A stretch of 20,725 bases of DNA from a virus: positions 1-20,725 of the IMG/VR virus record IMGVR_UViG_3300019849_000006; one strand, 5' to 3'. The position numbers were made by a program, and so were the translations under genes. The notes below the pieces were generated by a model. It ran no database searches. It was not told the origin of the DNA and saw only the letters and a program-made list of their open reading frames with translations. This document shows positions 2,324 to 19,995 of the stretch, piece by piece. The stretch's first letter is position 1. Every line of letters starts with the position of its first letter.

Positions 2324-4336
2324 TTAATTGCCAACCCTTTTTGTTATTTCGTCTAAGATTTCATCTGATAAAGGCTGCGTGATAATCGTTGCAATATCTC
2401 TGTCTACAATTTGTTCGTTACGCAAGTTACGTTGCTGGCGCAACCTGTCATACGTTGCCGAAGCTATGCTTAAAAGAGCGTTTCTATCAGCTTGAATTTT
2501 ACCAAAGTCGCGCCGTCCCGCCATGCGAGACGCGGTAAGCGATCCCGTTGTTGGCGAAACTCTTTGAACGCGGCCTGATAGCTCTTCCATTTCAATCAAT
2601 TCTTCGATAAAACTATCAGCCATTTCGGGGTTATCAAATGAAGCGCGTAGCTTGTCGCGCAAGCTATTTGACCTGACCAATCTCCTGACACGATTTGTAT
2701 CTGCCACGCCATCCTGAAGTATATCCACAATTCCTTGCAAAATGCCTGCGCGGTAAAATTCTTTTTCGCTCGAATTCATGGCGTCTACGGTGCGGGAAAC
2801 ATCTTCAATTCTGACTTTGCTTGATTTTAACATTTTGCGACCGTCAATTAAAGCCGAACGCAATGACGCGGGACCCGCATAAGCATCTCTGGCTGCTTTA
2901 TAAAGGGGCGCTATGCTGTCCGCCTCATTAATAAAAGACCGCCTTAAACCACTTGCGGCAACGCCTTGAGCGCTTAACCGTTGTGTTGTGCTATCTTTGT
3001 TTTTTTCAACAACATCGTCTAACCCGCGCTTTATATAATCTAAAACGCCGCCATTTATCTGATCACCTAAAGTCCATTTGCCGTCTTCCGTTTTAATCAT
3101 CCCCATTGTTTCAGGCGACATTCTTTCATCAGACATGATGCGCCGAGCGCGTTTAAATGCGGCCACACCTGACGGCGTATCCAGCAAAGAGCGAAGTTCT
3201 TCGGTTACAGGGTATTGAGTAAGCCGCAATTGATCGTAAAGCGGCGCGGCATCATTACGTATTTGCTCTTCAAGATTATCTATATCCTGCAAATAATCTG
3301 TGCGCCGCCTAGATAAAGTACGTTTGGCGACATCGCGTACTTGATCGGTTTGCAAATCCAAAACCTGCTGGCGATATTGCTGAATAATCGGCCTCGCCTC
3401 GCCCGCGCCAAGTGCTACTTGACTTCCTAATAACTCAATATTTTCCCCGCCAAGCTGCAACAGCGTTGGCCTGCGGCCCGTGCGATTTTGAAACTCACGC
3501 GCTCGTTGTGCAATGTCCCGAATGTTAATGCCATCCAGTCGCAACGCCTCACTCAATCGAGCATTAACAGCACCGCCTTGCGGGAAAACAGTGTCAACCG
3601 CCTTGTTTAAGCCAGTTAATAAGGCTTCCGCTGGTGCCGCTGCAAACCTTCCCGCGCGCCCCACCAAACCTGTTGGCGCTAGGTTTAAATCATCAACTGA
3701 CACGCTGTCTGCCGGGTCTATAATTTCTGCATCAACAAAACTTTGATCTTCAATTTGTCGCGTATTAGGCTGCTGCACATCTTGCTGCTGCCTTGATGAT
3801 CTTGCTATTTGCCGCCTGCCAGACCTTACAGCAAGGGGTAAAGGCGCGCTAATTGGGTTGGCCAATGCTGCCACTTCTGCGGCCTCAACCAATTCTTCAC
3901 GCGGAATACCCGTGATTTCTTCGCCAGACTGCCCAGCTGTTTGGGTTATGGCATCCAACAAACCTATGCCGCCAGCCGCAACGGCCGCGCCCGCGCGGTA
4001 TGGCAAGCGCAATAGACGTTCAATATAAAATTGTCGCGGGTCATCGCGTAAAAGACTATTATCCGTTAATCCCGCATATACCCCCTCGGCTGTGCCATAA
4101 GCTTCGCCAAGCGCATCGCCAAAACGATCAATGATGTTGCTATCATCTGGCTGCCCAGCGGTCTGTGGCGTCCCCATGGCATCAATCATAACATCCTCCG
4201 GCACACGACCAAAAGCAGACGCGGGCGCTGGTTCAGGCAAAAACTGCCGACGAATAACAGCCGCAATCTGTTCGTCTGTCATGCCTTCGGGGAAAACGGC
4301 GATCTCGCCATTCGGTAATTGAATGCGCTTATCCAT
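2324..4336 (-). CDS. Large DNA-ejection (internal virion) protein, gp16 position
   Basis: A 670-aa protein, last of the ejection-protein run, in the place and size range of P22 gp16 (about 609 aa). The N-terminus carries a short motif, LPNGEIAVFPEGMTDEQIAAV (residues about 6-26), that recurs at the start of many phage internal virion proteins. A Gly/Ala-rich hydrophobic stretch lies near residues 112-130. The segment at about 275-375 (pattern R-x-F-x-x-R-T-G-R-x-P-T-L, then LGG-x-N and A-x-P-L-Y) is typical of podovirus ejection proteins. The remainder is helical and charged. ATG 4336 shares its A with the upstream stop (TGATG); an in-frame GTG at 4339 is the alternative start. Its expected role is release into the host envelope to help pass DNA across; no enzyme motif is seen. 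Confidence 0.8.
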   Translation of the reverse strand: MDKRIQLPNGEIAVFPEGMTDEQIAAVIRRQFLPEPAPASAFGRVPEDVMIDAMGTPQTAGQPDDSNIIDRFGDALGEAYGTAEGVYAGLTDNSLLRDDPRQFYIERLLRLPYRAGAAVAAGGIGLLDAITQTAGQSGEEITGIPREELVEAAEVAALANPISAPLPLAVRSGRRQIARSSRQQQDVQQPNTRQIEDQSFVDAEIIDPADSVSVDDLNLAPTGLVGRAGRFAAAPAEALLTGLNKAVDTVFPQGGAVNARLSEALRLDGINIRDIAQRAREFQNRTGRRPTLLQLGGENIELLGSQVALGAGEARPIIQQYRQQVLDLQTDQVRDVAKRTLSRRRTDYLQDIDNLEEQIRNDAAPLYDQLRLTQYPVTEELRSLLDTPSGVAAFKRARRIMSDERMSPETMGMIKTEDGKWTLGDQINGGVLDYIKRGLDDVVEKNKDSTTQRLSAQGVAASGLRRSFINEADSIAPLYKAARDAYAGPASLRSALIDGRKMLKSSKVRIEDVSRTVDAMNSSEKEFYRAGILQGIVDILQDGVADTNRVRRLVRSNSLRDKLRASFDNPEMADSFIEELIEMEELSGRVQRVSPTTGSLTASRMAGRRDFGKIQADRNALLSIASATYDRLRQQRNLRNEQIVDRDIATIITQPLSDEILDEITKRVGN

Positions 4337-18760: not shown

Positions 18761-18795
18761 AAAAAAATCAAAAAAAATCAAAAAAAGTGAAAAAA
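18761..18795. other. Phased A-tracts between divergent promoters (curved DNA)
   Basis: Four runs of 6-8 A begin at 18761, 18770, 18780 and 18790, spaced 9-10 bp apart and so in phase with the helix. Such phasing bends DNA. The array ends 4 bp before the rightward -35 box and begins 13 bp beyond the leftward -35 box, so it could act as an UP element or host-protein site for both promoters. Confidence 0.7.
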
Positions 18796-18799
18796 GGGG

Positions 18800-18828
18800 T
18801 TGATATTGTGCCAATATGCACATATATT
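18800..18828 (+). promoter_or_regulatory. Rightward early-type promoter 1 with spacer dyad
   Basis: TTGATA (18800-18805) and TATATT (18823-18828) are 17 bp apart. The spacer carries an imperfect dyad, TGTGC...GCACA (18807-18822), placed where a bound repressor would block RNA polymerase. A start near 18835 is expected. The -10 box and the following leader recur 456 bp downstream. Confidence 0.8.
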
Positions 18829-18838
18829 AATTTCATGA

Positions 18839-18875
18839 GGCAAGGAATTGGTTCCGGCCTGGCTTTAGGAGCAAA
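18839..18875 (+). repeat. Duplicated leader element, copy 1
   Basis: A 37-base block that matches 19295-19331 at all but one position. It contains a GGAA-TTGG-TTCC mini-hairpin (18844-18855) and ends with the AGGAG ribosome site of the next gene. GTTCC (18851-18855) could also pair with GGAGC (18868-18872), which would hide that ribosome site, so two exclusive folds are possible. It is untranslated if ATG 18880 is the start. Confidence 0.85.
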
Positions 18876-18879
18876 TCAA

Positions 18880-19251
18880 ATGACACAGTTCACCAAAATC
18901 AACAATCAGTTTCGCAGCAAAGTTATGAAGGCTGCTGGCACTATGTATGCAAAGTGCAAGCATAAAACCTCAAAAAACTGGGCTTCATCTCTGCGCCGCG
19001 CATGGAAATGGGCCAAAGAAAAGTTGATGGCTCCAGCTGTGCAAGGTTTTGCTTATCGCGAGTGGTCGCCACGCGCTGGCTTCGTTCGTTTTTACTTCGA
19101 CGATAACAGCTATGTGCAGTTAACGGCGCGCGGCCCGCGCGGCTCTTATGAGCGTCATCGTGCTTGCAAAGGTGAAACTTTCTATTGGGTTAAGTCTGAA
19201 GGCGATATTGCATCAAAAGTTGTGAAGTTTTTTGAAAATAAATACGCATAA
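18880..19251 (+). CDS. Orphan 123-aa basic protein, first gene of the rightward module
   Basis: I do not recognise this protein. It is basic and compact: an N-terminal Lys-rich region (MTQFTKINNQFRSKVMKAAG), a helix with SSLRRAWKWAKEKLM near residues 37-51, then a strand-rich C-terminal half with FVRFYFDDNSYVQLTARG and a Lys-rich end. No membrane segment, signal peptide or enzyme motif is visible. ATG 18880 is chosen because AGGAG lies 8 bases upstream and the same leader-to-ATG layout precedes the next gene; the reading frame stays open upstream, but that stretch is promoter and leader. A strong promoter with an operator, small size and a regulator gene downstream fit an early host-takeover or anti-defence protein, which is inference only. 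Confidence 0.82.
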   Translation: MTQFTKINNQFRSKVMKAAGTMYAKCKHKTSKNWASSLRRAWKWAKEKLMAPAVQGFAYREWSPRAGFVRFYFDDNSYVQLTARGPRGSYERHRACKGETFYWVKSEGDIASKVVKFFENKYA

Positions 19252-19255
19252 GGAC

Positions 19256-19284
19256 TTGAAATTTCCTAATTTAGGAAATATATT
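19256..19284 (+). promoter_or_regulatory. Rightward promoter 2 with perfect 17-bp palindrome as spacer
   Basis: TTGAAA (19256-19261) and TATATT (19279-19284) are 17 bp apart, and the whole spacer TTTCCTAATTTAGGAAA (19262-19278) is a perfect palindrome around a central T. A repressor bound there would cover both boxes. The promoter begins 5 bp after the stop of the previous gene. Its -10 and downstream leader copy those of promoter 1, while its operator differs. Confidence 0.85.
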
Positions 19285-19294
19285 AATATCAGAC

Positions 19295-19331
19295 GGCAAG
19301 GAATTGGTTCCGGCCTGGCTTAAGGAGCAAA
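19295..19331 (+). repeat. Duplicated leader element, copy 2
   Basis: The second copy of the 37-base leader, offset by 456 bp from copy 1, differing only at 19322 (A instead of T). The GGAA/TTCC hairpin (19300-19311) and the alternative GTTCC/GGAGC pairing over the ribosome site (19307-19311 with 19324-19328) are both kept. The gene start ATG 19335 follows. Confidence 0.85.
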
Positions 19332-19334
19332 AAA

Positions 19335-19562
19335 ATGCAAACCACACCTCAAGGCAACAAGTTTCAAGAATGCTGTGTAGTGCAAGGCTGCTACTTTCTT
19401 GAAGTGAACGATAAAGTAGTTGGTTATATTGACCAATCACACATAAAAGAATTCACACATTGCGATGAAACCCGCAAGCGGATCGGCGAAAAAGTGGTTG
19501 TCGAAGGTAACTACCGCGGACTTCCAGACTTCGTTGATCGCTTAGTCGCTGGCGAGGTTTAA
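19335..19562 (+). CDS. Orphan 75-aa protein under the second leader copy
   Basis: Not recognised. It begins MQTTPQGNKFQECC, carries four cysteines (three in the first 20 residues), has a likely strand pair (CYFLEVNDKVVGYI), and ends VVVEGNYRGLPDFVDRLVAG with an acidic last residue pair. No membrane helix is seen. ATG 19335 has AAGGAG upstream inside the duplicated leader. A terminator follows directly, so it forms its own transcription unit. Its context suggests co-regulation or alternation with the 123-aa gene. The function may be host modulation or counter-defence, but nothing in the sequence proves it. Confidence 0.82.
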   Translation: MQTTPQGNKFQECCVVQGCYFLEVNDKVVGYIDQSHIKEFTHCDETRKRIGEKVVVEGNYRGLPDFVDRLVAGEV

Positions 19563-19567
19563 TACAT

Positions 19568-19590
19568 AGGGGCTTCGGCCCCTTTTTATT
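19568..19590 (+). terminator. Intrinsic terminator with UUCG loop
   Basis: GGGGC and GCCCC (19569-19573 and 19578-19582, extended by an A-T pair) close a UUCG tetraloop, followed by UUUUUAUUU. It ends the transcript of the 75-aa gene, so the HTH gene just downstream is expected to be read at a lower level through leakage or from a weak promoter of its own. Confidence 0.88.
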
Positions 19591-19602: not shown

Positions 19603-19995
19603 ATGGCTAATAGCGCAGAATATGACACACTTAGAATATTTTTAGGCCTATCATATAAAGACGTAGCTTTTATGCACGGTGTTTCTGATCGTGCAATCCG
19701 GTATTGGATTAAGTCTGATGAGGTGCCAGCCGATGCAATGGATCAGCTGGTAGATTATAATAACTTTTTGGACGTGGAAGCTGATCTATTGTACCGCGAT
19801 GCAATCGCGGAGGCGTTGGAATTTGGCGACGATCATGTTGTAAAGCTTGTCAGGTTCAGAAGAAACGCAAGCGCCCTTCAAAACAGCCAAGAAGAGCGTA
19901 TGCCAGTCGGTGCCTACGCGATTGTGGTGCAGCGAGCATATGAATTGATTCATGATCATGGGATAGCCGCTGAAATCGTCTGGTCTGATGATTAA
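19603..19995 (+). CDS. Helix-turn-helix regulator, DUF1870/YdiL/Aca2-like plan
   Basis: A 130-aa protein with a clear N-terminal helix-turn-helix at residues about 18-37 (YKDVAFMHG, then VSDRAIRYWIKSD) followed by EVPADAM. The rest is helical, and the C-terminus is GAYAIVVQRAYELIHDHGI with a final VW. An HTH with the R-x-x-R/Q-Y-W recognition helix, then V-P-x-D, then a helical dimerisation region is the plan I associate with DUF1870 proteins such as YdiL and the anti-CRISPR regulator Aca2; this is from memory, not an alignment. ATG 19603 has GGGAG about 7 bases upstream, just after the terminator. It is a candidate autorepressor of the two spacer operators upstream, though those differ from each other. 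Confidence 0.8.
   Translation: MANSAEYDTLRIFLGLSYKDVAFMHGVSDRAIRYWIKSDEVPADAMDQLVDYNNFLDVEADLLYRDAIAEALEFGDDHVVKLVRFRRNASALQNSQEERMPVGAYAIVVQRAYELIHDHGIAAEIVWSDD

Follow-up and report, generated by a model that had tools for sequence, protein, structure and literature searches.

A promoter-leader cassette duplicated ahead of unrelated small genes in a P22-like phage fragment, and an analogous cassette in distant relatives

In the window analysed here (the whole stretch of 20,725 bases, a partial viral record), two small orphan genes are each preceded by a copy of the same promoter-leader cassette. The cassette is real and non-random, and an analogous family of cassettes occurs in relatives of the phage. 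We think it probable, on balance, that the duplicated cassette is a portable expression module made up of an operator-bearing promoter, a near-5'-terminal hairpin and a strong Shine-Dalgarno (SD) sequence.

Layout of the repeat and of the genes behind it

The minus strand of the window carries a P22-like morphogenesis cluster, with genes for the coat, a stabilisation protein, the portal and the large and small terminase subunits. Three small plus-strand genes are divergent from the terminase cluster, and the cassette stands before each of the first two. Gene 1 (18880..19251, plus strand, 123 aa) and gene 2 (19335..19562, plus strand, 75 aa) found no relatives in protein searches of PHROGs, Pfam, IMG/VR and phage records. 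Nor did BLASTP align them with each other, even at E 100, in agreement with a sequence-only reading of this DNA that had seen no similarity between the two. The two-gene unit is closed by an intrinsic-terminator-like site, AGGGGCTTCGGCCCCTTTTTA (19568..19588, plus strand). Gene 3 (19603-19995), which lies 3' of the terminator and lacks a cassette copy, encodes a protein of 130 aa whose helix-turn-helix match is weak; it is a candidate regulator.

The cassettes lie in direct repeats of 82 nt each, 456 nt apart (18794-18875 and 19250-19331). Each contains a sigma-70-type promoter on the plus strand that matches the consensus at 10 of 12 positions, TTGATA-17 bp-TATATT in P1 (18800..18828) and TTGAAA-17 bp-TATATT in P2 (19256..19284), followed by a 37-nt leader that ends at the ribosome site (18839..18875 and 19295..19331, plus strand). 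The spacing, promoter layout and single leader mismatch given in the sequence-only reading all hold. The leaders are identical at 36 of 37 positions, the first 27 without exception, and the mismatch is a T to A change in the loop of a predicted hairpin that holds the SD. Since an exact 27-nt match is expected only ~1.4e-8 times in 20.7 kb, chance is excluded for the leader repeat. Conservation is concentrated in the leader, as had been proposed: identity is 9/12 in the -35 block, 7/17 in the spacer and 12/16 in the -10 block and the bases that follow, so that at most one of the 18 mismatches of the repeat falls in the leader (hypergeometric P = 7e-5).

An SD, AGGAG in the first copy, stands 6-10 nt 5' of the ATG in both copies. 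Another ATG, at 18835, coincides with the predicted P1 transcript start and is in frame with gene 1, to which it would add 15 residues; a leaderless start there is a formal possibility, confined to copy 1. The frame that leads from copy 1 into gene 1 is interrupted by a stop in the second copy; gene 2 reads the leader in another frame. Because the two frames differ, the conservation of the leader is not coding.

Both leaders are predicted to fold alike, into GGC-AA-GGAA-UUGG-UUCC-G-GCC and then a 4-pair hairpin with the SD inside. The leader, of ~40 nt, would thus have one stem of 7-8 pairs and one of 4, and its first hairpin would begin 10 nt past the -10 box, ~4 nt from the expected transcript start. 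The predicted hairpins are no more stable than those of shuffled sequences (z -0.7 to 0; -1.4 and -0.7 in a second test), and covariation is undetectable in the window because its two copies are nearly identical. A search of Rfam gave no match above the curated threshold for the window. In the window phage itself a leader hairpin is suggested by the folding prediction, short of proof.

The two spacers differ, and each has its own palindrome centred between the -35 and -10 boxes, a feature that the earlier reading had missed. The P1 spacer holds an imperfect palindrome, TGTGC-N6-GCACA (18807..18822, plus strand; 6 of 8 symmetric pairs), whose quality is matched by ~3% of random spacers and which is a possible operator. 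In the P2 spacer the palindrome ATTTCCTAATTTAGGAAAT (19261..19279, plus strand; 8 of 8 pairs) is perfect over 17 nt, or 19 nt with its flanks. A palindrome of this kind occurs in ~1e-4 of random spacers, and its arms are the longest of any found in a scan of the window; it is likely to be a repressor operator. Neither palindrome recurs within the window. These observations suggest that each promoter has a separate operator. As the palindromes differ, a simple common control of genes 1 and 2 is doubtful, and with it the earlier proposal that they are co-regulated.

Searches for the leader and an analogous cassette in relatives

It had been suggested that the leader might recur before other small genes of this phage or of related genomes, and searches of both gave no further hits of this kind. 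Within the window the next-best match to the leader (21/37) is at background level. An exact search of IMG/VR returned no leader, which leaves two copies, both in the 20.7-kb partial record; as this record is incomplete, the phage may have more. Relaxed, gapped leader patterns retrieved five stretches from GTDB and two from IMG/VR; these lie mostly inside or beside coding sequence and look like chance matches, and none contains a promoter-leader cassette. A BLASTN comparison of the region with plasmids and phages yielded nothing beyond chance hits, of which the single one in the phage collection falls outside the leader. The closest phages, namely L003, L014 and L004 (portal proteins 46-47% identical to that of the window), Pseudoalteromonas phage H6/1 (38%) and Vibrio phage 340E47.2 (35%), carry neither the window cassette nor the relatives' cassette described below. 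In L004, positions 2664-3096 hold three short repeats, AATAATTTTAAACGCCCGGAAAC, some of them near the starts of small genes.

A scan of 80-odd related loci for duplicated sequence 5' of SD-preceded starts identified a second cassette. It consists of TTGACA-17-TAnAAT, 10 nt (GGGAACCATA), a hairpin GAGNGGCRYGGUGCNNCUC, an SD and an ATG, and it occurs in relatives whose portal is 41-45% identical to that of the window (L021, L035, L050, L056, L063, L065 and L093-L126). Pattern search found it in 36 IMG/VR contigs, and ~40 contigs carry it overall. A covariance model built on it (R1) gave 61 matches in 39 loci, nearly all with E < 1e-6; the 61 include loci that overlap on the same contig and reduce to 36 distinct rows. 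The stem of eight pairs is 95% paired in these sequences, and compensating two-sided changes occur in 17 cells vs 5.9 in shuffles and at most 3 in slid controls. This covariation is limited to two of the eight pairs, and the number of covarying pairs is not above that in shuffles. The relatives' cassette had no match in Rfam or among isolated phages, and we found no description of such a promoter-hairpin-SD family in the literature searched.

Behind the relatives' cassette stand 55 proteins that form 22 groups of small proteins. Most near-complete records have two or three copies of it, and the window has two of its own. A terminase or portal gene lies on the same fragment in 27 of the 40 cassette loci, with the cassettes mostly within a few kb upstream of terL; they run with the terminase genes, whereas the window cassette is divergent from them. 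An identical 88-nt cassette precedes different genes in L094 and L095, and the genes whose products begin with MEINNYTLEL and MKFENVAEVG stand either behind this cassette or, in other genomes, behind a different hairpin leader that ends in ACTCTTGACGGAG. Gene exchange behind the relatives' cassette is thus visible. A second leader type was seen before small genes in L021, L085, L094, L097, L100, L103, L109 and L124, usually as a GC-rich hairpin followed directly by CTCTTGACGGAG; some genes are found behind either type.

We rejected the window leader as a member of the relatives' family by sequence, as the R1 model scores it at E = 1.5. What the two cassettes share is a -10 box, a gap of 10 nt, a hairpin (predicted in the window), an SD, an ATG and a position near the terminase genes. 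They are therefore akin in layout and neighbourhood and not in sequence, and the window pair is best understood as this phage's own version of the relatives' kind of module. That cassettes of this type mark a family of accessory genes, as had been proposed, is borne out by the relatives' different cassette, with its 22 protein groups, but not by the exact leader of the window, which was found nowhere else in the collections searched. The P22-like group seems to reuse ready-made control modules habitually.

A portable module and its rivals

According to the explanation that we favour, each copy would be a complete module, with a host sigma-70 promoter and its operator-like palindrome, a leader of ~40 nt and an SD. 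The leader would most likely give strong expression to any gene placed behind it: the near-terminal hairpin would shield the 5' end of the mRNA from decay and hold the ribosome site in constant surroundings. In E. coli, secondary structure at the 5' end blocks the access of RppH and RNase E and stabilises mRNAs (PMC3997798), and the fixed distance between hairpin and start in the two cassettes fits stabilisation of this type. Once the cassette had been duplicated, homology between the leaders would permit the exchange of small genes behind it, as has been proposed for the PeSLs of T4 and for HGTV-1, while the spacer of each copy could have become a repressor site of its own. Several observations speak against this reading: the unexceptional stability of the window hairpins, a kinship with the relatives' cassette by layout alone, the absence of both cassettes from the closest phages and the divergent orientation in the window. 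A hairpin followed by an SD that is itself embedded in a hairpin could also lower translation.

Four rivals have to be weighed, which we rank as follows: a leader-specific regulator, recent conversion, a put-like function and coding. The first, which we regard as rather unlikely though the strongest of them, holds that the leader, as RNA or as initial transcribed DNA, is bound by a regulator of phage or host origin that governs both genes together; examples would be a translational repressor acting at the SD and a CsrA-like protein that recognises the two GGA motifs. Conservation beyond the needs of a promoter, the palindromic GGAA-N4-TTCC, GGA motifs in both parts of the leader and an SD inside a small predicted hairpin in both copies would all suit such a site. 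However, GGA and short hairpins are common, the leader folds no better than shuffled sequence, no candidate partner was identified, and the different spacer palindromes argue against common control at the DNA level.

Alternatively, the leader might have been copied by a recent local duplication or gene conversion, so that its identity would reflect age, not function. The presence of only two copies, 456 nt apart in one genome and with no other occurrence, is compatible with this, and conversion over a short tract that stops at the leader is conceivable. Yet the mismatches avoid the leader within a single repeat, the promoter hexamers and their spacing were kept while the spacers came to hold different palindromes, and the layout recurs, with covarying stems, in the relatives. 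We consider a recent copy unlikely.

Much less plausible is a put-like antitermination function of the leader RNA, by which polymerase from both promoters would pass the terminator at 19568 and continue into gene 3. HK022 has two similar short put RNAs, putL and putR, behind two early promoters, one of them immediately behind PL (PMC9378689), and in the window the terminator precedes the helix-turn-helix gene at 19603. By their description, however, put RNAs are ~70 nt long, have two substantial stems, act on RNA polymerase and have no SD inside (PMC9378689), whereas the window leader has ~40 nt, contains an SD, has no Rfam match and stands in each copy directly before a gene start. Finally, that the leader is coding sequence, with gene 1 starting at ATG 18835 on an open frame (MRQGIGSGLALGANQMTQ...) and copy 2 as a remnant, is hardly credible, as the equivalent frame in copy 2 lacks a start and runs into TAA, and each copy retains an SD just ahead of the ATG that follows. 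A leader peptide likewise ranks low.

A bolder reading can also be imagined. In environmental P22-like podoviruses, interchangeable, lineage-specific hairpin leaders might constitute a riboregulatory code, each lineage having its own factor that recognises its leader and with which acquired small genes are switched on or off jointly. The window cassette and that of the relatives would then represent two dialects within a single, so far undescribed class of mRNA leaders in phages. We regard this as unlikely.

Comparison with known systems

Stem-loops at the 5' end that stabilise mRNAs are known from ompA and papA; as they appear in the references of PMC3997798, they differ from the window cassette in serving single genes and not being shared modules. 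The SAS/ESAS elements of Cluster K mycobacteriophages are comparable in arrangement, being repeated non-coding elements at the starts of a subset of genes, with the ribosome site inside and an inverted repeat in the ESAS (PMC3203893). Unlike the window cassette, they occur in 11-19 copies per genome, consist of a 13-bp SAS and 17-bp inverted repeats and are shared across subclusters (PMC3203893); their sequence, GGGATAGGAGCCC, is not that of the window leader, which has two copies only.

Another parallel is the PeSL (promoter-early-stem-loop) of T4-type phages, regarded as a mobile regulatory cassette (Arbiol 2010 and Comeau 2014, as cited in PMC4503421); a motif similar to it is present in the haloarchaeal virus HGTV-1 (PMC3950731). 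To the extent described in PMC4503421, PeSLs resemble the window cassette in joining an early promoter to a stem-loop, in being repeated before small unrelated genes and in the gene shuffling proposed for them. They belong to another phage family and, to judge by the title of the 2014 paper, are promoter-terminator composites, whereas the window has few copies and its hairpin would lie between promoter and SD, in the mRNA leader. Set beside the PeSL, the window has a host-type promoter, two copies before unrelated small genes and an adjacent hairpin that is predicted, with a stability not better than shuffles; beyond the one chance hit, the phage collection contained no similar DNA that would indicate sequence sharing with T4-type phages, and gene shuffling at the cassette was seen only for that of the relatives. 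The small-gene regions of phages are rich in orphan genes that give no clue to when they act or what they do. Where a promoter-hairpin-SD cassette can be recognised, as in the P22-like group, it provides a means of collecting accessory genes that are acquired and expressed through one module, and the exchange of genes behind fixed regulatory modules becomes open to direct test in phages other than the T4-type.
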